Part shown: positions 1-33,748 of the stretch, in pieces
How positions within the stretch are numbered: the first letter of the stretch is position 1
Layout: each line of letters opens with the position of its first letter
Virus record (IMG/VR): IMGVR_UViG_3300005536_000004
Coordinates: 1-36,553 of that record
Origin: a virus
DNA: 36,553 bases
Strand: one strand, 5' to 3'
The notes under the pieces: model-generated
The model's input: only the letters and a program-made list of their open reading frames with translations
Told to the model about the DNA's origin: nothing
Databases searched by the model: none
Position numbers and translations under genes: made by a program

Positions 1-68
1 AGCATGGCGTGCTGATCCTGCAGCCACTCCCGCGCTTCCTGCTCCGCGCTCGGGCGCTCCGGGGTCAT
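1..68 (-). CDS. 5' fragment of the coiled-coil protein gene (duplicate of 35900-36541)
   Basis: This is the first 22 codons plus two bases of the leftward coiled-coil gene that is complete at 35900-36541. It is truncated only because the window repeats itself here. The ATG at 68-66 overlaps the TGA (67-65) of the preceding gene, giving ATGA coupling. Do not count it as a second gene. Confidence 0.9.
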   Translation of the reverse strand, partial: MTPERPSAEQEAREWLQDQHAM

Positions 69-80
69 AGCGGCCTCGCG
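1..80. repeat. Terminal direct repeat, left copy
   Basis: Bases 1-80 are identical to 36474-36553. The leftward gene that ends at position 65 is followed, through an ATGA overlap, by the gene whose full copy starts at 36541, so the operon is continuous across the join. This shows the map is circular. Whether the overlap is physical terminal redundancy or an assembly overlap cannot be told from sequence. Confidence 0.95.
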
Positions 81-346
81 TCGTAGGCGTCGATGGCGCG
101 AAGCAGAGCGTTGATGCGCACGGCCACCAAGGTCGGTATCACCTCCCATGTCTCGCGGCGCCGTGGCCGAGTCATCATCGACGTCCCGAGATTCCGCGCC
201 GCCTCGACCACCGGGCGCATGCGGGCTAGCTCCGCGCGGGCGTCGCGTGCTGCGGCAGCGAAGATCGCTTCGCGCTGGCTTCCATTCTCGATGGCCTCGG
301 CAATGAAGTCATCGCTCACGCGCGGCTCTGCGCTCTCGGGGGTCAT
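65..346 (-). CDS. Hypothetical 93-aa protein, paralogue of its neighbour
   Basis: The function is not recognised. The ATG at 346-344 overlaps the upstream TGA in an ATGA junction and has a GAGGAA ribosome site about six bases upstream, so I prefer it to a longer frame start at 436. The product begins M-T-P-E-S-A-E-P-R-V-S and contains DARAELARMRPVVEAAR near residues 35-52. The gene directly upstream has nearly the same two segments (SAEPRVS and DARTELAALRPVVDAAR), so the two are tandem duplicates that have diverged. It is helical, charged, with no membrane segment. It is part of the leftward early operon and is followed across the circular join by the coiled-coil gene. Confidence 0.8.
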   Translation of the reverse strand: MTPESAEPRVSDDFIAEAIENGSQREAIFAAAARDARAELARMRPVVEAARNLGTSMMTRPRRRETWEVIPTLVAVRINALLRAIDAYDARPL

Positions 347-648
347 GGCTTCCTCGACTCGTAGGCTTCCACCGCCCGGGCCATATCGTCGCACGCTTCG
401 CTTTCCTCTTTGGTGCAGACACCCGTCGCGTGCCACTTCCGCGCCGCATCGACCACTGGGCGCAGCGCGGCGAGTTCCGTGCGGGCGTCGCGGAGCATTG
501 CGAGCAGCCCCAGGAACTCGTTCGGGTGAAGCCGCATCGGCATCGTGCGGAGGTCGGGATTCGCTTCCATCAGGCCACGCGCGTTCGCCTCTAATGCTAT
601 CAACGCCCCGACGCTCACGCGCGGCTCCGCGCTCGGGTGGTCGGTCAC
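343..648 (-). CDS. Hypothetical 101-aa protein, paralogue of its neighbour
   Basis: The function is unknown. The chosen start is GTG at 648-646, which overlaps the TGA of the Erf gene (GTGA). It places the conserved SAEPRVS segment at the N-terminus exactly as in the downstream paralogue, whereas a longer frame would add an unrelated Arg-rich stretch read inside erf. The central segment DARTELAALRPVVDAAR matches DARAELARMRPVVEAAR of the next gene. It ends in ATGA coupling with that gene. Probably a small accessory early protein; helical and soluble. Confidence 0.78.
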   Translation of the reverse strand: MTDHPSAEPRVSVGALIALEANARGLMEANPDLRTMPMRLHPNEFLGLLAMLRDARTELAALRPVVDAARKWHATGVCTKEESEACDDMARAVEAYESRKP

Positions 649-1619
649 GACGCCATCCCCGGCGGCGGCAGGTCGGGCGGTTCGTTGGCAGCTCTCAGCC
701 ATTCGCAGATCGTAGCCCACTGCTCTCCGGTGAACGCTTTCGCCTCCTTCTCGGTGGCGAGCCGCTGGAGGCCGAGAGCCTTGCCGTAGACGGCGAGCCG
801 GTCAGGCCTGTGGGCGGCGTCATTGGCGATACCGTACCGCTCCATGAGCGCGAATGCGCGCTTGCGTTCGGTGGTGGCGTCGAGCGGCTTGGCGGGCTCG
901 GGAGAAGGACGGGGGGCCGGGTCCGACTCCGACGCCCCCGCCTGCCGAGAGGCCGCTACCTGAGTCGGACGGCTAGGCGGCGTCGGCTGGTTCGAGGCGG
1001 GCGGGGCTTCCGTGCCCGCGTCCATCGCCCGCCGCTTGTCGGCAAGGTCCCCGCAGGTCGCACACAGGCCGTCGCCCCTGCCCGCCAGCCGCGTTTCTCC
1101 GCATCGGGGGCAGAATGGGCCAGGCGCCGACGCCCGGCTCTTGCCGCGAGCGCTGGGCAACGCTGGGCGTTTGTCTGTTCCCTCGTCGGCCTCTGGGTCA
1201 TCGCCAGTCGGCATCAGGAACGTCTTGAGCAGGAAGTATTTCAGGGCTCCGGTCATCGCTTTATAGAGCCCCTTGTCGCCCTTGTCCTCGCCAGTTCCAG
1301 CCCATCCGACGGTCATCGTCTCGCCCGTAGCGCCGTCTGTGAACTGAAACTCCATGATGGCCGTCGTGAGCGTGCCTTCGCGCAGGACCTGCTTGATGCT
1401 GGGAACGAGCGAGATGCCGCGCGACGAGAGCGCCCCGCGCACGGCTTCCACGATATCGGCCTCGGTCGCGTAGTCGTACTTGTGGAACTCGTTTCGCCCG
1501 CGCTTGGGCACCCTTGAAACCTCGGCCATGATCTCAGCTAGCTTGGCGTGCAGGCTCGCGGCGGGCGTGCCGTTGCTCGCCTCGACTGGCACTAGGTCCG
1601 TGCTCACTGACGTGCTCAC
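645..1619 (-). CDS. erf: Erf-family ssDNA-annealing recombination protein
   Basis: A single-strand annealing protein of the Erf superfamily, expected to pair complementary strands during phage recombination or circularisation. The Erf core is residues about 25-148: a helical start (KLAEIMAEVSRVPKRGRN), the HKYDYATEADIVEAVR segment, a GTGEDKGDKGLYKAMTGALK segment and the TFLMPTGDDPEAD end. After the core there is a CPRC...CATC zinc-ribbon-like pair (about 170-189), a Pro/Ala linker, and a helical C-terminal domain with an aromatic QWATICEWL helix. The GTG start (1619-1617) overlaps the upstream TGA and has GGGAG just before it; the longer frame to 1706 lacks such support. The VRR-NUC-like nuclease and endonuclease VII encoded elsewhere fit the same recombination role. 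Confidence 0.9.
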   Translation of the reverse strand: MSTSVSTDLVPVEASNGTPAASLHAKLAEIMAEVSRVPKRGRNEFHKYDYATEADIVEAVRGALSSRGISLVPSIKQVLREGTLTTAIMEFQFTDGATGETMTVGWAGTGEDKGDKGLYKAMTGALKYFLLKTFLMPTGDDPEADEGTDKRPALPSARGKSRASAPGPFCPRCGETRLAGRGDGLCATCGDLADKRRAMDAGTEAPPASNQPTPPSRPTQVAASRQAGASESDPAPRPSPEPAKPLDATTERKRAFALMERYGIANDAAHRPDRLAVYGKALGLQRLATEKEAKAFTGEQWATICEWLRAANEPPDLPPPGMAS

Positions 1620-1831
1620 TTGTCTCCCTTCGTTTGCAGTGCCGCTAGTGCGGCCCCACACCACGGGCAAAAACCCATCGGCGGCAGATCGCAGCCGATG
1701 TTCCAATGCGTCACCTGCCCGTCGGGGTATGTGCTCGGATAGATGAGCGCCCCGTACATTTCGTTATCGGTGCCCCATCCGAGCGCGCGAGCAAAGGCGT
1801 CGCAACACGTAGCGTAAACCCGTTCGCTCAT
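1616..1831 (-). CDS. Small cysteine-containing protein (71 aa)
   Basis: Unrecognised. It has a C-P-W-C-G knuckle near residues 55-59 and further cysteines at about 9, 10 and 48, so single zinc binding is plausible. The ATG at 1831 sits in an ATGA junction with the upstream gene and the TGA overlaps the GTG of erf. It is one of several CxxC micro-proteins in this operon and could bind nucleic acid or protein; nothing more specific can be said. Confidence 0.75.
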   Translation of the reverse strand: MSERVYATCCDAFARALGWGTDNEMYGALIYPSTYPDGQVTHWNIGCDLPPMGFCPWCGAALAALQTKGDK

Positions 1832-2022
1832 CTGGCGCCCCAGACTCGCAGCGTCCCGTCGCTGCGTTCAATCGCTTCGGCGGCGTCTCTCATCTCGCGC
1901 TGATAGTCGCGTTCGTCCGACTCGCTCCAGTCGAGGCAGGCCGGACGTTCGCACGAGGCTCCGAAGCTCCGGACCACCAGCACATCGGTCGGCTGGCCAC
2001 ACAGGGGGCAGGGGGTGGTCAT
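1828..2022 (-). CDS. Small zinc-knuckle protein (64 aa)
   Basis: The protein starts with C-P-L-C-G at residues 5-9, followed by a second pair CERPAC at about 24-29, a four-cysteine arrangement that typically binds one zinc. The rest is an acidic and basic helix (SESDERDYQREMRDAAEAIER). The ATG start and stop are both in four-base overlaps with neighbours. No family is recognised; a small DNA- or protein-binding factor is likely. Confidence 0.75.
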   Translation of the reverse strand: MTTPCPLCGQPTDVLVVRSFGASCERPACLDWSESDERDYQREMRDAAEAIERSDGTLRVWGAR

Positions 2023-2354
2023 CTGCCCACCAGATGCATCGCCGTGGCCCCAGCCGGAGATGCGGTGTACGACGCGAGTTCAATAACGGCCGCGCAGTAG
2101 AATGTTCCTGCGATGCCGCTTCCAACTAAGCAGATGATCGCGGCAAGCCCAACGCCCTCGCTGTCTGAGAACTTGGCCCACAGTGCAAGCAGTGCGGTGG
2201 CCAATAGGAGCAGGATCAGGAACACCCCCAAAACATGCACTTGTGCGTGGAGCCCGCCACCGTATGCCTTCATTGCCTCGGGGCCGAGCTGATCGACTGC
2301 GGTGCCGGCCCGCGTGGCTAGAACCGCCAAGGCGGAATCAAGCTGCGTGCTCAC
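2019..2354 (-). CDS. Small membrane protein with two transmembrane helices (111 aa)
   Basis: Hypothetical inner-membrane protein. Two hydrophobic helices are visible: HVLGVFLILLLLATALLALWA (about 46-66) and GLAAIICLVGSGIAGTFYCAAV (about 75-96). The N-terminal 40 residues are soluble and helical. The GTG start at 2354 overlaps the TGA of the 25-residue micropeptide just upstream, which places it in the same translational relay as the rest of the operon. Being an early gene, a role in superinfection exclusion or envelope modification is possible, but this is inference. Confidence 0.78.
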   Translation of the reverse strand: MSTQLDSALAVLATRAGTAVDQLGPEAMKAYGGGLHAQVHVLGVFLILLLLATALLALWAKFSDSEGVGLAAIICLVGSGIAGTFYCAAVIELASYTASPAGATAMHLVGR

Positions 2355-2428
2355 CACGACCACTTCCCCGCGCCGGTCCACGACGCTTGCGTAGCGAGGC
2401 CCCGGAGCCATGCGAGCAGGCGGGTCAT
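2351..2428 (-). CDS. Micropeptide, 25 aa, hydrophobic with SW C-terminus
   Basis: The 25-residue frame starts at ATG 2428, inside an ATGA overlap with the upstream gene, and ends in a TGA that overlaps the GTG of the downstream gene, so both ends fit the operon's coupling pattern. It begins M-T-R-L-L-A-W-L and ends G-K-W-S-W. A second micropeptide at 6562-6636 begins M-T-R-I-I and ends M-R-S-W-H, and one at 4777-4866 ends R-R-S-W. The residues are enriched in Trp, Leu and Arg, suggesting an amphipathic or membrane-seeking helix. Function unknown. Confidence 0.6.
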   Translation of the reverse strand: MTRLLAWLRGLATQASWTGAGKWSW

Positions 2429-2628
2429 GGTTTGACCTCTGACGCCTTCGCGTCCGCGTTGGTGAATGCTTGCTCCCAGGTGCGGCCCTCGCCAGCAATC
2501 CAGCCCATTCGCTTCTTGCCGCAGATAGTGCCGTAACGCCCGACGATTTTGGTCAGGCCGCGCTCCCAGACGCCTCCGTTGCTGCCCCATCGGTATCTGG
2601 CTTCAAGTAACGCTTCGCGCCTGCTCAC
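2425..2628 (-). CDS. Hypothetical 67-aa protein
   Basis: Unrecognised small basic protein. The GTG start (2628-2626) overlaps the TGA of the previous gene, whereas the longer frame to 2793 would lie wholly inside that gene. The sequence is rich in Gly, Trp and Arg with short aromatic segments (RYRWGSNGGVWERGL, KRMGWIAGEG), suggesting a compact beta fold. The ATGA at its end leads into the 25-residue micropeptide. Confidence 0.7.
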   Translation of the reverse strand: MSRREALLEARYRWGSNGGVWERGLTKIVGRYGTICGKKRMGWIAGEGRTWEQAFTNADAKASEVKP

Positions 2629-3101
2629 GACTGGCCTCCGATCCGTTTGGCCTGCGCGATGGCAGCCTCGATCCGCGCCTCGGCGTCGCGGAGCCGGTCG
2701 AGCGCGCTTTCGAGGCCACATGCACAGGCGAACGCTGGGCTTCTCGGGTCTCGAATGATCCCGTCCACGCGATTCAGGGCATCGGCCGGACACATCCGGT
2801 CATGCTCCACGACGAACGATCCCAAGTCCGCGTCCTCGTCGTCGTGGTCGAGCTTCTGGCGCACGCGGCGCAGCACGTCGGCGACCTTGGCTAGTTCGTC
2901 GGCGAGTAGGGATGCGGCGAGCCGGAGCCCAGCGTCGGCGGCGGGTGGCCGCTCCGCGCCGAGCAGCGTGTCTCCCTTGAGGAATCGCGTTCCGTTGGCC
3001 AGATCGCAGTAGTCTCCCCAATGCGATTCGGTCGGCATGCCGCGCTTGTCGTAGAGCCGCGCACCGCGTTCATGCTGTCCACACGCGCAATCACGGCTCA
3101 T
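2625..3101 (-). CDS. Hypothetical 158-aa protein with cysteine motifs
   Basis: The start at 3101 has an excellent ribosome site (GGAGG, four bases before ATG) and an ATGA overlap with the 46-residue membrane protein upstream; the longer frame would read through that gene. The product has C-A-C near residues 5-7, a central charged helical region (LADELAKVADVLRRVRQKLDH) and a C-terminal CACG followed by another long helix (ALDRLRDAEARIEAAIAQ). It looks like a helical accessory protein. No family is recognised. Confidence 0.75.
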   Translation of the reverse strand: MSRDCACGQHERGARLYDKRGMPTESHWGDYCDLANGTRFLKGDTLLGAERPPAADAGLRLAASLLADELAKVADVLRRVRQKLDHDDEDADLGSFVVEHDRMCPADALNRVDGIIRDPRSPAFACACGLESALDRLRDAEARIEAAIAQAKRIGGQS

Positions 3102-3238
3102 CGTGCCTCCGGGAAGTGGGCGCAGCACCAGAGCAGCCAGGCATACGCCAGGGTGGAGAGGATCAAGGCGGCGGGCGGCCGGCGGAGCGAAGTACGCGCG
3201 GCCCTTGCCCGGTTGAGAGACCGACCCGCCGCGCTCAT
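3098..3238 (-). CDS. 46-aa single-pass membrane protein
   Basis: This small gene sits exactly between two others, with ATG at 3238 overlapping the upstream TGA and its own TGA overlapping the downstream ATG, so it fills the interval precisely. The N-terminal 20 residues are strongly basic (many Arg), followed by one hydrophobic helix, LILSTLAYAWLLWCCAHF, with two adjacent cysteines. Positive-inside topology would put the N-terminus in the cytoplasm. It belongs with the other tiny membrane proteins of this genome. Function unknown. Confidence 0.65.
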   Translation of the reverse strand: MSAAGRSLNRARAARTSLRRPPAALILSTLAYAWLLWCCAHFPEAR

Positions 3239-3552
3239 GTCCGCACCTTCGCGAGAACGGCGCGGGCGGCATCCTGTGACGCATCTACCGCATCCCAGTT
3301 GACCGAAGGACCGCCGCTTCGCTGCACGGCAAATGCCTCGATTGCTCCGATGAGCCGGTCACACACCGCCACGAGTTCAGCGTTCAGGGAGCGGCAGTCG
3401 CGGTTCTCGTCGGCCAAGTCACTCAGCGTCCAGGTTGCTTCGCATAGCGGCTGTCCGCAGACGCTTTTGGTAAAGCAGGAGTGGCCGACCTGCTCCACCA
3501 GATACTCAATCGCTGCCCTGATGCGTTCATCGGAGAGGCGCGGCGCGGTCAC
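3235..3552 (-). CDS. Hypothetical 105-aa helical protein
   Basis: Starts at GTG 3552 in a GTGA overlap with the gene upstream and ends in an ATGA overlap. The N-terminus (PRLSDERIRAAIEYLVEQ) is a helix; a middle segment has three cysteines at about residues 26-37, and the C-terminal half is helical. The opening S-D-E-R-I resembles many Ead/Ea22-type phage accessory proteins, but this is only a resemblance. Early operon member of unknown function. Confidence 0.72.
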   Translation of the reverse strand: MTAPRLSDERIRAAIEYLVEQVGHSCFTKSVCGQPLCEATWTLSDLADENRDCRSLNAELVAVCDRLIGAIEAFAVQRSGGPSVNWDAVDASQDAARAVLAKVRT

Positions 3553-3740
3553 GACTTGGGCTTGCGGAGCGTGCCGTTGAGCAGGACTTCTATGCCCGAT
3601 TGTGCGGCAACAAGCGCCATTTGGGCGTCTGTCATTCTGCCGTGGCGCAGCGCATCGTCAGCATCCTGGAGTTGTTCAATCACGGCCGCAATCATTGGGT
3701 CACGTCGCGGCATCGTGCTCGAATCAATGGGCATGCTCAT
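3549..3740 (-). CDS. Hypothetical 63-aa protein
   Basis: Unrecognised helical protein containing AAVIEQLQDADDALRHGRMT followed by DAQMALVAAQSGIEVL. ATG at 3740 is preceded by a purine-rich AGAGAGCGAAG. About 28 bases separate it from the upstream KGG-repeat gene, one of the few gaps in this operon. Its end overlaps the next gene by GTGA. Confidence 0.7.
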   Translation of the reverse strand: MSMPIDSSTMPRRDPMIAAVIEQLQDADDALRHGRMTDAQMALVAAQSGIEVLLNGTLRKPKS

Positions 3741-3768
3741 GTGCTTCGCTCTCTTTCTGCGCGGCGTC

Positions 3769-3915
3769 TCAAGCCGTGCGGGGGTGCTTCGCTGCCTTGG
3801 CTCTCCCGCCCATGCGGGCGATCTGTGCTCTGCGTTCTGCGCTCAGCTTGCGCGCTCGCGCCTTGCCGCCCTTGCGGCCGATCTTGCGGTAGTGGGCGAT
3901 GAGCGTGCGGGTCAC
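3769..3915 (-). CDS. 48-aa basic KGG-type protein
   Basis: A short GTG-initiated gene in a frame that differs from the longer Arg/Gln-rich frame covering the same bases. The product reads HYRKIGRKGGKARARKLS then AERRAQIARMGGRAKAAKHP. The repeated R-K-G-G-K-A / R-M-G-G-R-A pattern is the one seen in small basic phage and bacterial KGG-like proteins, which are often read as nucleic-acid binders. The distinctive repeats, good length and lack of overlap with neighbours support this frame. It begins four bases after the stop of the gene upstream. Confidence 0.75.
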   Translation of the reverse strand: MTRTLIAHYRKIGRKGGKARARKLSAERRAQIARMGGRAKAAKHPRTA

Positions 3916-3918
3916 GAA

Positions 3919-4158
3919 TCACGCCTCGGGTGGTTGAGGGTCAACTTTCGGCTTTCTCTTGAGGTCTGCGACATTCTTGCAGGTGGCGAAGTGGGTCACG
4001 AAGCATCCCTCTTGCCGGTGGACCTGGAACACCCCGTCCAGGTCGCCACCGTTGAAGGAGAAGATCGGGGCGCGCGGGTCGAGCGGATGTGTCGTGCCCT
4101 TTTCGTCCTTCGCCCATAGGATGGGCTTGCCGCACAACTTGCATGGGACGGTTTTCAT
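3919..4158 (-). CDS. Zinc-ribbon phage protein (79 aa)
   Basis: Strong AGGAGA site before ATG 4158. The N-terminus carries C-K-L-C-G at residues 6-10, followed by PILWAKDEKGTTHPLDPRAP, and C-terminal cysteines (EGCFVTHFATCKN). The layout of a CxxC knuckle, a conserved His-Pro-Leu-Asp segment, then F-V-T-H-F-A-T-C, resembles a common small phage protein that probably binds one zinc. Function unknown. It sits eight bases after the upstream stop. Confidence 0.78.
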   Translation of the reverse strand: MKTVPCKLCGKPILWAKDEKGTTHPLDPRAPIFSFNGGDLDGVFQVHRQEGCFVTHFATCKNVADLKRKPKVDPQPPEA

Positions 4159-4166
4159 GGGCTCTC

Positions 4167-4412
4167 CTACCAGTGCAGGGTCCGGCGGGCCGCGCGGCGG
4201 AGCTTTTCCTCGTCCTTGGTGCGTTTGCACAGTCGAGCCGGCATGACGACGGTTTCCGACTCTCGCTTGGCCCGAGCGAGCGAGACGAGAAAGACTTCCT
4301 TGATGTCCTCGATGGTGGCCGTGTGGCCGCCCTCGTTCATGCCCTTGAGCCATGCGTCGAGCAGATCGTTCGCCCGACCGAGCACGGTGCCTTGATGCGG
4401 GACCTTTCTCAT
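4167..4412 (-). CDS. Hypothetical 81-aa protein
   Basis: Begins at ATG 4412 within ATGA of the upstream gene; a longer frame to 4652 would run antisense-like through that gene and is rejected. The sequence is helical (RANDLLDAWLKGMNEGG, TIEDIKEVFLVSLARAK) with a basic C-terminal tail (KRTKDEEKLRRAARR). It could be a small DNA-binding or regulatory protein at the head of the operon, but no family is recognised. Confidence 0.72.
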   Translation of the reverse strand: MRKVPHQGTVLGRANDLLDAWLKGMNEGGHTATIEDIKEVFLVSLARAKRESETVVMPARLCKRTKDEEKLRRAARRTLHW

Positions 4413-4606
4413 GACGTGGCCCGTACAAACTGATCGGCAGCAGTCACGGCTTCGGTGAACGTGGAGTAGACCTTCCAGTCGCAGTGCGGGCGATTCTCGG
4501 TCCACACGCCGAAGGCTTCGCCCTCTGCGAACACCTTGGCAATGCGCCACTCGGGATTGAAGACCTCGAACTTCCGCACCCACGTTCCTGCACGCCGCTC
4601 GTTCAT
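4409..4606 (-). CDS. Hypothetical 65-aa protein, first sizeable gene of the early operon
   Basis: ATG at 4606 follows a near-ideal GGAGGAG site. The product is aromatic and beta-like (TWVRKFEVFNPEWRIAKVF, HCDWKVYSTFTEAV). It is the first gene downstream of the promoter and repeat-box region at 4657-4702, so it should be expressed early. Such first genes often encode takeover or anti-defence proteins, but nothing in the sequence identifies one here. Confidence 0.75.
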   Translation of the reverse strand: MNERRAGTWVRKFEVFNPEWRIAKVFAEGEAFGVWTENRPHCDWKVYSTFTEAVTAADQFVRATS

Positions 4607-4656
4607 TCGCTCCTCCGCTCTGGTTCGCGGGGCTTCTCGTTCCCCGCGTCACTCAC

Positions 4657-4684
4657 AGTATCTGCTTACCGGGCTGCTTAGCAA
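4657..4684 (-). promoter_or_regulatory. Leftward promoter candidate for the early operon
   Basis: On the - strand, TTGCTA (4684-4679) and GATACT (4662-4657) are separated by 16 bp, each matching four of six bases of the sigma-70 consensus. Transcription would start near 4650, giving a leader of about 45 bases before the strong ribosome site of the gene at 4606. The elements overlap the TGCTTA boxes, which suggests a regulated promoter. Confidence 0.5.
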
Positions 4685-4702
4685 GCCCCTTTTTGCTTAC
4701 CG
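4663..4702. promoter_or_regulatory. Operator-like TGCTTA box array
   Basis: TGCTTACCG occurs at 4663-4671 and again at 4694-4702, 31 bp apart (about three helical turns). A third box, the near-palindrome TGCTTAGCA, lies between at 4675-4683. The boxes cover the spacer, the -35 and the upstream flank of the leftward promoter, as an operator for a repressor would. Confidence 0.45.
4671..4694 (+). terminator. Rightward intrinsic terminator
   Basis: Read on the + strand, GGGC-TGCT, one loop base, AGCA, a bulged A and GCCC form a hairpin of eight pairs, followed by C and five T residues (4690-4694). It would stop rightward transcripts that continue past 32,494 around the circle, antisense to the whole early operon. 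It overlaps the leftward promoter. Confidence 0.55.
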
Positions 4703-4776
4703 CCGCAGACTTGACATTTCGCCTCAGCGGGGGACGTGTCACCGGAAGGTTCCGACCGTTCGCCGCCCCCGCTTCG

Positions 4777-4866
4777 CTACCAGCTCCTACGCCCTACCGC
4801 CTGCCCTGCGATCGCCAGGAATCCCACCACCGTCAACACCGCTACCGCTGCCACCATCGTGACCAT
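4777..4866 (-). CDS. Micropeptide, 29 aa, single hydrophobic helix with SW C-terminus
   Basis: A 29-residue frame with a textbook start: GGAGG, five bases, then ATG at 4866. It encodes one uninterrupted hydrophobic helix (MVAAVAVLTVVGFLAIAG) followed by a short basic tail ending R-R-S-W. It would be the first gene of a transcript from the promoter at 4920-4947. The Ser-Trp ending recurs in the micropeptides at 2351-2428 and 6562-6636. A membrane-inserted peptide, for example a small regulator or exclusion factor, is likely. Too short for a database-independent family call. Confidence 0.6.
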   Translation of the reverse strand: MVTMVAAVAVLTVVGFLAIAGQAVGRRSW

Positions 4867-4919
4867 CTCATCCTCCGCTCATGTGGTCGGGTCTCTGCGT
4901 CCGCCTAGAGCCCCGGTCT

Positions 4920-4947
4920 GCCATAGCCAATGCGTCCGCCATGCCAA
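4920..4947 (-). promoter_or_regulatory. Leftward promoter candidate upstream of the micropeptide
   Basis: On the - strand, TTGGCA (4947-4942) and TATGGC (4925-4920) are separated by 16 bp. The -10 resembles the TATGGT of the promoter at 11802-11829. The start would be near 4912, about 45 bases ahead of the micropeptide ATG at 4866. Confidence 0.4.
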
Positions 4948-5058
4948 CCCGTAACCCCAAGCCCCACGCTAGAACGCTCCCACGCTTCCGCCCTTGACCG
5001 TGCAGCCCGCCATTGCACCCCTTGCGCCCCGCAACGCACGGCGCTAGCCTGACGCCCC

Positions 5059-5748
5059 ATGACGGTCGCTGAGGCCTCTGCGTCCCATTCCAGCCTCGCC
5101 CCCGCCGTCTGCGCCTCATGTACCCATCCGCAGACCGCTGAGGCCAACGCCGCGCTCCTGAGAGGCGAGTCCGTTCGATCCATCGCCCGCCGCCTAGAAA
5201 TGTCCATGCCCTCGCTCTATCGCCATGCCCGCGCTTCCCATCATCTCCGAGGCCGTGTCAATCCTGACACACCCCCGGCCGCCCCAACCTCGCAGCCTCC
5301 CGCCACGCCCCTGTCACATGACCAGGATGACCGCGAGGCCGAGATCCTCGTCCGCAACGCCCTGCGCCACCTCAAGCGCGCCATGACCAGCGCCGAGGAC
5401 AAAGACCGCAACGGAGCTATCACCGCCGCGCGCAACGCCCTAGAGCACCGCGCCAAGCTCCGCGGCCGCCTCATCCCAGGCGGAGTCAACGTCACGCTCA
5501 ACAGCCTCACGTCCGTTGCAGTGGCCGAGCGAGAGCAGGCCGCATCTATGAGCGCGTTCGAGGTCACGGAGCAGGCTGGCGCGTGGCTGGGTGCGCAGTT
5601 AGAGGCAGGGAGCGCGGACGCTGTGCGCACGGTGCGAGCGCTGATGCGCATGCTGCCTAGCGCGGAGGTTGCGGCGGGGGATGCGGTGCGCGAAAGCACG
5701 GGCGAGGGGGAGCGCGAGGTCGGGAGCGACGCTGGTGCGCATGAGTGA
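5059..5748 (+). CDS. HTH/zinc-knuckle protein; possible small terminase subunit
   Basis: A 229-residue DNA-binding protein. The N-terminus has C18-x-x-C21-T-H-P, then a helix-turn-helix over about residues 33-62 (LLRGESVRSIARRLEMSM followed by PSLYRHARASH). This Cys-pair plus HTH plus R-H arrangement is common in phage and actinobacterial proteins that recruit DNA. The middle is a helical segment (REAEILVRNALRHLKRAM) and the C-terminal third is helical and acidic. A small-terminase-like role is attractive because no other candidate TerS is present and TerL is encoded 4.4 kb downstream, but a regulator is equally possible. The start ATG has no clear ribosome site. Confidence 0.7.
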   Translation: MTVAEASASHSSLAPAVCASCTHPQTAEANAALLRGESVRSIARRLEMSMPSLYRHARASHHLRGRVNPDTPPAAPTSQPPATPLSHDQDDREAEILVRNALRHLKRAMTSAEDKDRNGAITAARNALEHRAKLRGRLIPGGVNVTLNSLTSVAVAEREQAASMSAFEVTEQAGAWLGAQLEAGSADAVRTVRALMRMLPSAEVAAGDAVRESTGEGEREVGSDAGAHE

Positions 5749-5912
5749 TGCGCATGGCCTGCTGCGCTGCGTTGAGCGCGTGCGCATGCGGTGCAGCCAG
5801 GCAAGCGACCGAGGGGACGGGGCCACCCCGGGGGGTGCGCTGGGAGTCCCGGCCACTGCACGCTCCCTGTGTCGGTGTGGGGGTGGGGAGCCTGGGGTCG
5901 CAGCGGAGGGGT

Positions 5913-5985
5913 TGGTAGCAGGCTCGGGAGTCGAACCCGACTCGCGCTGGCTTATGAGGCCGGGCGAGTCACCGGACCGCCTGCG
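5913..5985 (-). tRNA. tRNA with CAU anticodon (Met/fMet- or Ile2-like), short D-arm
   Basis: On the - strand the 3' half is canonical: a perfect five-pair T-stem around GGGTTCGACTCCC, a TTCGACT T-loop, discriminator A and an encoded CCA. The acceptor arm pairs GCAGGC with GCCTGC over six pairs; the outermost pair is C1-U72, a mismatch. The anticodon loop is CTCATAA on a stem with three G-C pairs next to the loop and one C-A mismatch. Only 15 bases lie between acceptor and anticodon stems, so the D-arm is truncated. The 1-72 mismatch and loop-proximal G-C pairs recall initiator tRNA. Confidence 0.75.
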
Positions 5986-6060
5986 GTGGGCGTGGCGCTC
6001 GCTGGGAGCGAGGCGTCTGAGGCGTGCGGGGTCAGAGCGAGAGGGCGGGCTCTGGGCGGC

Positions 6061-6088
6061 AGGATAGGGCTGGCGCTGTCAAATGCAA
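6061..6088 (-). promoter_or_regulatory. Leftward promoter candidate for the tRNA
   Basis: On the - strand, TTGCAT (6088-6083) and TATCCT (6066-6061) are 16 bp apart. Transcription would start near 6054, about 70 bases before the tRNA 5' end. No protein gene lies downstream on this strand before the tRNA, so the tRNA is its natural target. Confidence 0.45.
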
Positions 6089-6163
6089 GGGGAAAGCGCT
6101 GGTGTTGACGGGGGAGATGTGAAGTGGTGGAGAATGCGGGCAATCATCCGCGATTCTGGGCGC

Positions 6164-6182
6164 TTGTACCAAGTTGGTACAA
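6164..6182. promoter_or_regulatory. Perfect 19-bp palindrome, operator candidate
   Basis: TTGTACCAA, one G, then TTGGTACAA is a perfect nine-base inverted repeat with a single central base. It lies about 50 bases upstream of the endonuclease VII start, is AT-richer than its surroundings, and has the size and symmetry of a dimeric repressor site. No second copy was noticed. A TAGAAT -10-like element at 6221-6226 lies six bases before the gene's ATG. Confidence 0.6.
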
Positions 6183-6232
6183 AGTCGTGCGATTTGACGA
6201 ATGGCCTCGCCCGTTCCCGCTAGAATCCCATC

Positions 6233-6565
6233 ATGCCCCAACATCGCAAGGCTGTCATGCGTGCTGGTTTGACGCGCCTTCAGTCGGGGCGCTGTGCGAT
6301 CTGCGGTGATCCTCCGGGGAAGCGCGGGCTGCATCTCGACCACGATCACCTGACCGGAATCGTACGCGGACTGCTCTGCCATAGATGCAACTTCGGCATC
6401 GGGCTATTCCGCGATTCCGAGGAACTGCTGATGCGTGCGATCACATACCTCGGCCGTTCGGGATTCTCCGACTACGACATGCTCGCGGCGTGTATCGACC
6501 TCATGGATCAGGTCGAACGAGAGTCTGGGGTGAGGGCGCCGAGGAAGCTGCGGGAGCGAGGCTAG
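6233..6565 (+). CDS. Recombination endonuclease VII (HNH fold)
   Basis: A 110-residue nuclease of the T4 gp49 endonuclease VII family, which cuts Holliday junctions and branched DNA before packaging. The signature is complete: C21-x-x-C24, LHLDHDHLTG (34-42) with the catalytic D-H-D-H core, VRGLLC49-x-x-C52-N53, then a helix IGLFRDSEELLMRAITYLG. A TAGAAT element ends six bases before the ATG and no ribosome site is visible, so the mRNA may be leaderless. Its TAG shares the sequence CTAG with the stop of the leftward micropeptide, so the two converge with no gap. Confidence 0.92.
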   Translation: MPQHRKAVMRAGLTRLQSGRCAICGDPPGKRGLHLDHDHLTGIVRGLLCHRCNFGIGLFRDSEELLMRAITYLGRSGFSDYDMLAACIDLMDQVERESGVRAPRKLRERG

Positions 6566-6636
6566 TGCCAGCTCCGCATGGCGGCGATCAGCGCGGGTCC
6601 GAGCCATATGCACAGGTGCCGGATGATGCGGGTCAT
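6562..6636 (-). CDS. Micropeptide, 24 aa, coupled to the helicase gene
   Basis: ATG 6636 lies in an ATGA overlap with the helicase stop, and TAG at 6562-6564 shares CTAG with the convergent endonuclease stop, so the frame fills this gap exactly. It begins M-T-R-I-I-R-H-L, has a hydrophobic core (CIWLGPALIAAM) and ends R-S-W-H. The micropeptide at 2351-2428 is similar in length, in its M-T-R-(L/I)-(L/I) start, its W-L motif and its S-W end, although it lies in another operon. Function unknown. Confidence 0.6.
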   Translation of the reverse strand: MTRIIRHLCIWLGPALIAAMRSWH

Positions 6637-7823
6637 GGTGCCTCCCTCCAGTCGGGCTCGCGCTCGGCGAACCGTGCGGTGCTCAGGAACGTCAGCGGGA
6701 ACGAGTAGTGCCCGATTCCGTGCCGGTTCTTGCCGACCCCGAGCATGGATTCGTGCTTGGATGGGTTGCGGTGCAGCAGGCATACCAAGTCGGCGACCTC
6801 CTCGATTTCCCCAGCCTCCTTCAAGTCCGCCATGATCGGAAACGCGTTGGGGCCGCGCTGCTCCACCGCCCGCGACAACTGTGCTCCGATCAGCACTGGG
6901 ACCTCCAGGCTCATCGCCAAGGCTTTCAGTTCCCGCACCACCTCACCGACCTGCTCGCGCCGCGTCTGCCAGTAGCGATTAGGCGCTAGAATCTGCACGT
7001 AGTCCACCACGATCAGGGTCGGGCGGTCGCGCAGCATGCGGCAGAACTCGGCCGCCATCGCGGTCACATGGCCCACCGGGGCGCGGCGCGAGGGCGGCTC
7101 CTGAATCCACAGCGCCAGATTGGCCACCTCGCCCGGCCCGCTCGGGAACATGGTCCATAGCCGCCGCCGGATGTCTTTCAGGCTCATCTCCAGCGAGAAC
7201 ATCAGCACCTGCCAGCCCGAGCGCGCCGCCTGGACCGACCAGTCGAGCATCATCGCCGACTTGCCGCCTCCGGGGCGAGCGGCGATCACGTTCAGCGTGC
7301 CGGCCTCGATGTGCGCGTGTTCGTCGAGCGAGGGCAGGCCGGTGCGCACCCGGGGTGCCGCACCGGTCAGTTCGTGCTCGGCCATGATCTCGGCCAGCGA
7401 GCGCATGCCGTCCAGCGGCTGCCGTGGCCCTTCGATGCCGGCGAACCGATCGAGGGCCGCCTTGGCCAGTTCGGCCGGGTCGGCGGATCCGTTCGCCTGC
7501 TCGGCCAGCGTCAGGGCGTGGCGGCGGATCTCTCGCAGTTGCCGCTGGCGCCTGAGCATGGCGGCGTAGGCGGGCAGGTTCTGGGGCGCACAGGCGGACG
7601 AAAGCGCGTTGCCCCAGTCCACCAGCGAGAAGGGAATGCGCTCGGCACGCAGGTTCCAGCGCGCCAGATCCCACGGCCCATCCGCCGTCAGCTCGGCGAT
7701 CGCCTCGTAGGCCGACTTCATGATGCCGCTAAAGTCGGCGCGGTCGAACATCGTCCAACCCTGCCCGCGGTCCCGGAGCAGGGCTCCGATCACGGCTCGT
7801 TCCATCTCGGCTTGCGATGTCAT
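6633..7823 (-). CDS. DnaB-like replicative helicase
   Basis: A 396-residue RecA-fold helicase expected to unwind the phage fork for the host polymerase. An N-terminal helical domain (about 1-130) precedes the ATPase core: Walker A ARPGGGKSA with K188, Walker B LIVVDY (270-275), the LIGAQLSR strand (311-318), DLKEAGEIEEVAD (333-345) and the GVGKNRHG element (362-369). At about 400 residues it is slightly shorter than bacterial DnaB. The ATG at 7823 overlaps the stop of the upstream DUF1376-type gene; a longer start at 7883 would lie within that gene. It is coupled to a 24-residue peptide downstream. Confidence 0.92.
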   Translation of the reverse strand: MTSQAEMERAVIGALLRDRGQGWTMFDRADFSGIMKSAYEAIAELTADGPWDLARWNLRAERIPFSLVDWGNALSSACAPQNLPAYAAMLRRQRQLREIRRHALTLAEQANGSADPAELAKAALDRFAGIEGPRQPLDGMRSLAEIMAEHELTGAAPRVRTGLPSLDEHAHIEAGTLNVIAARPGGGKSAMMLDWSVQAARSGWQVLMFSLEMSLKDIRRRLWTMFPSGPGEVANLALWIQEPPSRRAPVGHVTAMAAEFCRMLRDRPTLIVVDYVQILAPNRYWQTRREQVGEVVRELKALAMSLEVPVLIGAQLSRAVEQRGPNAFPIMADLKEAGEIEEVADLVCLLHRNPSKHESMLGVGKNRHGIGHYSFPLTFLSTARFAEREPDWREAP

Positions 7824-8506
7824 GGCACCCACGCCTCCTCGCTCGCCAGCCCGTCGATTCCCCGGGACTCGGCGCTCTTGCACCAGTTGACGAATGCCCG
7901 GTCAAGGCTCTTGAACGGGTGCTGCTCGTGGTAGGAGATGAGCTTGGCTTCGATCACGGAGAGATCGAGCTTGGGGAATCTGACCTTCATCCGATGCAAG
8001 CAAGCCGCCGTCACGCCGCCGTTGGCGTGGACGGCGGCCTTGCTCGGCAAGGAGCCTGTCTTAGATTCTTCTTCTACGGAAGAGGAAGAGGCAAAGGCAA
8101 GGCTGACACGAAGCGACTCGCTATCCGGTCGCTGTGCGACCGAACCCCAACGCTTGGCGTTGGTTATGCGAGCGCCTTCTGACGCCGATGCTCTTCGACG
8201 CTCCTGCTTCGCACGCTCCAAGACCATTCGTCGCTGAACCAGTACCGGGGTCGCTGAGCGCATCGCTGAGCGAAACGCCGAGCGAATCGCTAGGCGACAG
8301 TGCTGCCAGCGGTCGCGCAGGTCGGACAGCCGGGCGAGTAGTTCGTCGTCGTCAGGAAGCACCCCGCACTCCTCCGCCGACCACGCATGGCAGAGGAGAT
8401 GGACGTAGCCGCCGCGCTGTTCAGGGGTCATCGCTGAGACGATGGAGTCGGAGAGATAGTCTTTCGGATAGAACTGGAACGACGGGGCTCTGTCGTCGGC
8501 TGGCAC
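7820..8506 (-). CDS. DUF1376-type replication accessory protein
   Basis: The N-terminus PSFQFYPKDYLSDSIVS followed by MTPEQRGGYVHLLCHAW is the hallmark of DUF1376 (YdaU-like) proteins, which often sit beside phage helicases and are thought to act in replication initiation or helicase loading. Residues about 60-115 are Arg-rich, followed by a Ser/Glu linker and a C-terminal helical region (FPKLDLSVIEAKLISYHEQHP) that could contact the helicase. The GTG start at 8506 has GAGGGACC upstream. The gene is first in a two- or three-gene replication operon from the promoter at 8656-8683. Confidence 0.85.
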   Translation of the reverse strand: MPADDRAPSFQFYPKDYLSDSIVSAMTPEQRGGYVHLLCHAWSAEECGVLPDDDELLARLSDLRDRWQHCRLAIRSAFRSAMRSATPVLVQRRMVLERAKQERRRASASEGARITNAKRWGSVAQRPDSESLRVSLAFASSSSVEEESKTGSLPSKAAVHANGGVTAACLHRMKVRFPKLDLSVIEAKLISYHEQHPFKSLDRAFVNWCKSAESRGIDGLASEEAWVP

Positions 8507-8601
8507 CTGGGCGGTCCCTCATGGACACTCGGCGTTGCGTTCCCCAGAATCCGGCGGCGTGCTGCCGCGCCAAGGACGAGCGGGCTGGCTTGCTCGGAGG
8601 C

Positions 8602-32598: not shown

Positions 32599-33002
32599 GG
32601 CTTCGGTCTGGCGCGGTGCCGGGCGGAGTAGCCGCGGTGGCACATGCGGCAGCGGCGCTTGCCGGCCGGGTCCAGGTAGAGGTTGTCGCCTTCCAGCGGG
32701 TGCCCCTGCTTGCAGTGCGTGGGGGGCTCGCGTCTACGCATGAGCGCCCTACGGCTCTGGGCTTCGTGGCCGCTGTTGATGGCTTCCTTGTAGCTCGGCC
32801 TGAATCGCGCGCCGCCCTTGGGGTCCTCGCCGCTGAAGCCGGCCGGGAGTACGCGCACGGGGACTGGGCCGAGATAGGGGCCGTTGTGCGACGGCGTGGC
32901 GAGCGGGAGGCGTGGGCGGGCATCCTGAGGCTCCATCGAGCGGCAGTTCTCGATCCGATGCCGCCCATCGCAGCAGGGGCAGACCAGCGGCGGCGTCCTC
33001 AT
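32595..33002 (-). CDS. Zinc-finger nuclease-like protein (135 aa)
   Basis: ATG 33002 overlaps the methyltransferase stop (ATGA). The N-terminus carries C-P-C-C (8-11); the C-terminus has HCKQGHPLEGDNLYLDPAGK followed by CRMCHR, the zinc motif found next to HNH nucleases and in small phage DNA-binding proteins, plus a basic tail (RHRARPKP). No clear HNH core is visible, so this may only be a DNA-binding protein. Confidence 0.65.
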   Translation of the reverse strand: MRTPPLVCPCCDGRHRIENCRSMEPQDARPRLPLATPSHNGPYLGPVPVRVLPAGFSGEDPKGGARFRPSYKEAINSGHEAQSRRALMRRREPPTHCKQGHPLEGDNLYLDPAGKRRCRMCHRGYSARHRARPKP

Positions 33003-33748
33003 AGCGCCAACACTTCTTGAGCGCATCGCCTCGCGGCAATCTCACAGTAGCGTTCCTCGATCTCGATACCGATGGCTTTGCGGCCGAGGTTCCGCGCGGC
33101 AACCAGCGTTGTCCCAGCGCCCATAAACGGGTCGATCACCGTGTCGCTCGGGGCACACGAACACTCAACCAGCGCCTGCACGACGGAGAGTGGCTTCTGC
33201 GTCGGGTGGTGGCCGCGCCGATGCTCTGAGCGCGCCCGAATCACACTGCGCTGAATCTTCGTCATCCCTGCAGGCTGAACGAACGTCGTGGCTCCGGTCT
33301 GTCCCAGCCATTGGGCGGGCCGTGACTTCTTCCGAACTACTCGGGCGTGAGCCTGATACATCTTCGGCGGAACCGCGTAGACGTTCGACCACTCGCCTCG
33401 ATAGAGGTGGACGGCCAGCTCGTGGACCCGCCGGAAACGGTCTGCATGGAGATTGGTCCCGTTGTGCTTTTCCCAGACGATTTCCTCTGCCAACACCCAC
33501 CCGACTAGCGCAGGAAGGTGCTTGAGCAGGTGGCGCAGGGACGTGAACATCCATAGCGAGGCGTCCATGCCCATCTTCCGCTCAAGGTAGGCGAGCCAGC
33601 CGTCGACCATGCCGTCCCACGGCAGGTTGGTGTCGCCATAGGGCGGATCGGTCACGGCACAGGCGGACGAGAAGTCGATCGAGTCGAGCACTTCCCGGCA
33701 ATCCCCGTGGTAGATCGTAACCGCGCCGTCCTGGTAGTAGGGCTTCAC
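32999..33748 (-). CDS. DNA methyltransferase (N4-cytosine/N6-adenine, beta class)
   Basis: A 249-residue methyltransferase. Catalytic motif IV DPPY is at 34-37, HPTQKP at 181-186 and the AdoMet motif I DPFMGAGTT at 206-214, so the catalytic motif precedes the cofactor motif, as in the beta class. The GTG start is adjacent to the upstream TAG and has GGGGGAGG nearby. It likely modifies phage DNA to escape restriction; the target sequence is unknown. No partner restriction gene is present. Confidence 0.9.
   Translation of the reverse strand: MKPYYQDGAVTIYHGDCREVLDSIDFSSACAVTDPPYGDTNLPWDGMVDGWLAYLERKMGMDASLWMFTSLRHLLKHLPALVGWVLAEEIVWEKHNGTNLHADRFRRVHELAVHLYRGEWSNVYAVPPKMYQAHARVVRKKSRPAQWLGQTGATTFVQPAGMTKIQRSVIRARSEHRRGHHPTQKPLSVVQALVECSCAPSDTVIDPFMGAGTTLVAARNLGRKAIGIEIEERYCEIAARRCAQEVLAL

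Follow-up and report, generated by a model that had tools for sequence, protein, structure and literature searches.

Do very short reading frames among the early genes of a phage encode products, and do those that resemble one another belong together? The question is raised by three frames of 24-29 codons, a size below gene-calling limits, in a virus record of 36.5 kb with a G+C content of 66% (IMG/VR record IMGVR_UViG_3300005536_000004; the window is this whole stretch, 36,553 nt). They were originally predicted to be a family of micropeptides, perhaps membrane-acting, with a common hydrophobic core and a Ser-Trp end. All three frames, here called pep1, pep2 and pep3, exist as predicted in position and length, and all lie on the minus strand (Table 1). 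Each also has the expected strong start or exact stop/start overlap, with pep1 and pep3 starting in 4-nt ATGA overlaps and ribosome-binding energies of -11.4, -9.5 and -6.5 kcal/mol for pep1, pep2 and pep3, respectively. Their placement beside a membrane-protein gene (pep3) and at the helicase end (pep1) held as well, while pep2, assigned to the head of the early operon, stands alone, separated from the operon's first gene by 170 nt. Judging from these sequence features, all three probably are genuine small genes and belong to a known kind; the claim that they form one family is weak.

Table 1. Features of the window discussed in the text, and coupled short frames on other viral contigs
Feature	Position	Strand	Sequence	Remarks
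Helicase unit	8506-6562	minus		DUF1376/primosomal-like gene, DnaB helicase, then pep1
DnaB-like replicative helicase, 396 aa	6633..7823	minus		phrog_19 E 5e-63, PF03796 E 3e-39
pep1, 24 aa	6562..6636	minus	MTRIIRHLCIWLGPALIAAMRSWH	last cistron of helicase unit
Endonuclease VII-like gene	6233..6565	plus		convergent with pep1; PF02945 E 2e-20, phrog_2914 E 8e-26
tRNA-Met (CAT)	5913-5985	minus		between helicase unit and plus-strand gene 5059-5748
pep2, 29 aa	4777..4866	minus	MVTMVAAVAVLTVVGFLAIAGQAVGRRSW	SD -9.5; predicted single transmembrane helix, then RRSW
Early operon, compact	4606-65	minus		contains Erf-type annealing protein at 1619-645
Early operon first gene, 65 aa	4409..4606	minus		SD -9.5; 170 nt after pep2
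Fourth short hydrophobic frame, 46 aa	3098..3238	minus	MSAAGRSLNRARAARTSLRRPPAALILSTLAYAWLLWCCAHFPEAR	early operon, 4-nt overlaps both sides
Frame before pep3, 67 aa	2425..2628	minus		GTG start; SD -9.5; 4-nt overlap at each end
pep3, 25 aa	2351..2428	minus	MTRLLAWLRGLATQASWTGAGKWSW	SD -6.5; links two genes via ATGA and GTGA overlaps
Membrane protein frame after pep3, 111 aa	2019..2354	minus		GTG start; rival ATG start at 2411
Coupled short hydrophobic frame, 27 aa	L005:18047	plus	MTILMLICLWSLFVTCRMAVYLWRYWR	
Coupled short hydrophobic frame, 36 aa	L007:6607, likewise L008	plus (L007)	MRWALIGAAAIVVVVAVAW...	
Coupled short hydrophobic frame	L004:9099	plus	MRSKADRDFAGALLAFYGLCAGIMLAVYFGHTWLGWF	

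Overlapping junctions of pep1 and pep3

Codon-based coding scores are ambiguous for these frames: all three fall at the 7th-12th percentile of true coding windows, a level that 7-11% of out-of-frame windows also reach. For pep1 and pep3, it is junction geometry together with ribosome sites that supports their being genes. The start of pep1 forms an exact 4-nt ATGA overlap with the stop of the helicase gene (7823-6633), and its ribosome-binding energy is among the strongest in the window, being equalled by 0.6% of the ATGs there and reached at 1.7% of ATGA sites. At its other end, the bases CTAG at 6562-6565 are shared by the pep1 stop codon (TAG) and the stop codon of endonuclease VII, whose gene runs convergently. 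The ATGA at the start of pep3 likewise overlaps the 67-aa frame (2628-2425) by exactly 4 nt, and its end overlaps the membrane-protein frame (2354-2019) by 4 nt through GTGA; here the ribosome-binding energy is one that 9% of the window's ATGs equal or better. The overlaps, like the ribosome sites and hydropathy values, are direct readings of the DNA, and both peptides display the combination expected of coupled cistrons, namely a stop/start overlap with a ribosome site inside the preceding gene.

That pep1 is fused to the helicase by frameshifting was considered and dropped, as no slippery heptamer was seen by eye near the stop, and an ATGA with a strong ribosome site fits better. Ahead of the endonuclease VII gene, positions 6164-6182 form a perfect 19-nt palindrome, TTGTACCAAGTTGGTACAA, whose core is found once in the window and which is possibly an operator.

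One explanation for such junctions is that pep1 and pep3 act in cis only, their translation carrying or releasing ribosomes while the peptides themselves serve no function. The location of pep3 exactly between two genes, overlapping each, would suit this role, and there is precedent for minigenes with a cis effect on the gene that follows (axe-txe, PMC8708949). Downstream of pep1 on the same strand, however, there is no protein gene for ~1.7 kb, just the tRNA, which excludes for pep1 any contribution in cis to reinitiation. An exclusively cis-acting role is possible for pep3; for the pair we regard it as doubtful.

A putative membrane peptide ahead of the early operon

The ribosome-binding energy of pep2 is equalled or bettered by 2.5% of the ATGs in the window. 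Its 21 uncharged residues, with a best 19-residue Kyte-Doolittle mean of 2.59, are followed by RRSW, and this agrees with the make-up of a single-pass membrane micropeptide, in which some 20 hydrophobic residues in a row are flanked by positive charge. A frame this short could have arisen by chance inside the 450-nt region between divergent units: the coding score of pep2 is low, and 36% of shuffles of its region hold some short frame with a ribosome site equally strong. None of those shuffled frames matches its hydrophobicity, however. A short frame combining a ribosome site with a hydropathy of at least 2.5 appeared in 0 of 5000 local shuffles and in 0 of 600 shuffles of 1-8600. Since its ribosome site is accompanied by non-random hydrophobicity, pep2 is supported as a gene, and we consider a chance origin unlikely.

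A structured element following pep2 was also rejected, as the predicted RNA fold of 4640-4776 is no better than that of shuffles (z -0.27); a search of Rfam returned no match. Three of the four plus-strand copies of TGCTTA in the window fall within 37 bases, at 4663-4699, between pep2 and the early operon, and this cluster is possibly a binding site for a regulator.

The overlap chain of the early operon

Within the early operon, eleven successive junctions between 3552 and 346 are all exact 4-nt overlaps (ATGA or GTGA). Because pep3 supplies two of the eleven, the chain is the main argument for its translation. Another view is that the pep3 frame is fortuitous and bears no product, the membrane protein truly starting at the ATG at 2411 in an overlapping frame. 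The codon score of the stretch 2411-2354 is consistent with this view, being 0.21 in the membrane-protein frame versus 0.12 for pep3 in its own. Against it, removing pep3 would leave a 13-nt gap to an ATG without a ribosome site at the cut-off of the scan, which the start at 2428 does reach, and initiation at 2411 would break the run of eleven exact overlaps. It is thus quite unlikely, in our estimation, that pep3 is a fortuitous frame.

The chain has a practical use, as an unbroken series of 4-nt overlaps offers a way to recognize genes of this size when they have no homologs: where a micropeptide has been overlooked, the chain is interrupted, and the break reveals it. The 46-aa frame at 3098-3238 has a hydrophobic stretch at its C terminus, and its last residues are not Ser-Trp.

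Do the three peptides form one family?

A family, if real, would represent a novel type of micropeptide set dispersed through a phage genome, with a basic or aromatic Ser-Trp end serving as an interface anchor for membrane-active peptides made from several units. As predicted, pep2 terminates in R-R-S-W and pep3 in K-W-S-W; pep1 departs from the pattern by one residue, ending R-S-W-H. Among the 11 short frames with ribosome sites, 3 have Ser-Trp at most three residues from the stop (SW or SWx), where 0.034 would be expected, and three such ends occurred in 0 of 300 dinucleotide shuffles of the minus strand of 1-8600, counting short frames with a ribosome site. With a correction for every possible terminal dipeptide, each weighted by its rarity, p came to 0.00025 (4000 shuffles, one filter, motif chosen post hoc). 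This value is optimistic because the filter (15-50 aa, ribosome energy of -6 or better, which just admits pep3) was set once the motif was known. Without weighting, 20% of shuffles show some dipeptide common to at least three frames. Of 278 comparable frames on other viral contigs, 1 has a Ser-Trp end. The ends are thus unusual and commoner than chance, yet the motif has two residues and was picked after seeing the data, and it is the sole feature of the family claim that goes beyond chance.

Other points in favor of a family are that all three peptides are basic, with net charges of +2 to +3, and that the end-to-end alignment of pep1 and pep3 beats shuffles (p 0.0045), a result driven by their shared ends. 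Local alignments among pep1, pep2 and pep3, by contrast, are no better than those of shuffled peptides (p 0.22, 0.20 and 0.37), and in a lenient tblastn self-search no peptide of the three matches another. The serine of the Ser-Trp end is encoded by AGC in two of the genes and by TCG in the third, pep3, and since one substitution cannot interconvert these codons, the end of pep3 is unlikely to descend from the same DNA.

The predicted common core did not withstand analysis either, as the best 19-residue Kyte-Doolittle mean, so high in pep2, is a marginal 1.23 in pep1 and 0.28 in pep3, which has no hydrophobic core. The longest uncharged runs of pep1 and pep3 are 13 and 7 residues, against the ~20 uninterrupted hydrophobic residues of a single-pass segment, and so the proposed action on membranes is plausible for pep2 and not for the other two. 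Nor is the M-T-R start, noted originally in two of the peptides, special to them, since it also begins an unrelated 48-aa frame at 3915-3769. A start codon within an ATGA or GTGA junction requires a second codon that begins with A, and at such junctions the phage has ACC or AGC in most cases; the junctions and the ACC codons together largely explain the M-T start. The 48-aa frame itself (minus strand; VTRTLIAHYRKIGRKGGKARARKLSAERRAQIARMGGRAKAAKHPRTA) is basic and carries KGG-like repeats.

Repeated use of one peptide family is therefore unsupported, with local similarity at the level of shuffles, no cross-hits and differing serine codons, and we judge it very unlikely. More improbable still is an elaboration in which very short basic peptides, dispersed over separate early units, would all carry the Ser-Trp anchor and act jointly on the host membrane, one of them inserted in it and the other two lying at its surface.

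Search for relatives

Searches of phages, IMG/VR and GTDB genomes turned up no relative of the region holding the three genes. In phage records, neither megablast with 12 kb of the sequence nor tblastn with the terminase, membrane protein or individual peptides gave a match, the terminase being without one among 50,697 records, and the helicase had distant matches only (<60% identity). IMG/VR yielded no relative when queried with the helicase, capsid or membrane protein. Queried with the terminase and portal, it gave only a 4.4-kb fragment (L002; 72% and 59% identity, respectively), and this best relative does not include the pep1-pep3 region. The Erf query found ten loci that have the Erf gene alone in common with the window, save for distant matches in three (L003, L005 and L012) to the minus-strand gene at 32999-33748, which lie near the Erf genes there. 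The latter gene probably encodes a DNA methyltransferase, judging by its DPPYGDTNLPW-type motif. Of the eight loci found with endonuclease VII, two (L015 and L016) also have a helicase, of 27% identity and in a different arrangement, located beside endonuclease VII. Genome searches with the terminase and helicase returned nothing. No significant PHROG was found for the terminase, portal or capsid, and no family member or profile matched any of the three peptides, PHROGs giving a weak match for pep2 only (E 0.12). By these searches the phage is very divergent, unlike database entries.

The Erf-bearing viral contigs, although unrelated, contain ATGA-coupled short hydrophobic frames of 27-37 aa, without Ser-Trp ends (Table 1). 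It is because these frames are similar that we place pep1, pep2 and pep3 in a known kind, and the three look like ordinary phage small-gene biology.

Proposed mechanism and comparison with known systems

We think it reasonably likely that the locus contains three separate small genes, pep1 and pep3 being expressed by termination-reinitiation and pep2 encoding a membrane micropeptide, with Ser-Trp ends that have no common ancestor. Translation, coupling, membrane insertion and any function of the products are inferred from the sequence features described above. At pep1 and pep3, a ribosome ending the preceding gene would restart at the overlapping ATGA, aided by the ribosome-binding site within the last codons of that gene, and at the GTGA of pep3 a second restart would hand ribosomes to the membrane-protein gene. 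Initiating from its own ribosome site, pep2 would most likely become a single-pass inner-membrane micropeptide, and the positive-inside rule would place its Arg-Arg end in the cytoplasm. For small membrane proteins of phages, the usual guesses at function are that they affect envelope proteins of the host or superinfection. The common M-T start would follow from junction sequence and ACC usage, and the Ser-Trp ends may reflect coincidence or a shallow convergence on an interface anchor rather than one ancestor.

Several known systems are similar in part. More than 2 million small genes are reported in phages (PMC11323111). The genes described here resemble phage small genes and small membrane proteins (Fremin et al. 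2022, as cited there) as short unannotated frames with ribosome sites in compact operons, often lacking a known function, and differ in that none of the three matches a family member or profile. The minigene of axe-txe (PMC8708949) resembles pep3 in being a tiny translated frame that precedes a gene whose expression it could assist; the minigene has two codons, whereas pep3 has 25 and exact overlaps on both sides. Termination-reinitiation coupling at 4-nt overlaps is established in bacteria and archaea, often with the aid of a ribosome site lying in the upstream gene (PMC6728339), and the exact ATGA and GTGA overlaps of pep1 and pep3, with their ribosome sites inside the preceding gene, follow this arrangement. 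What distinguishes the present case is that the coupling is predicted from sequence and that the links are whole cistrons of 24-25 codons.
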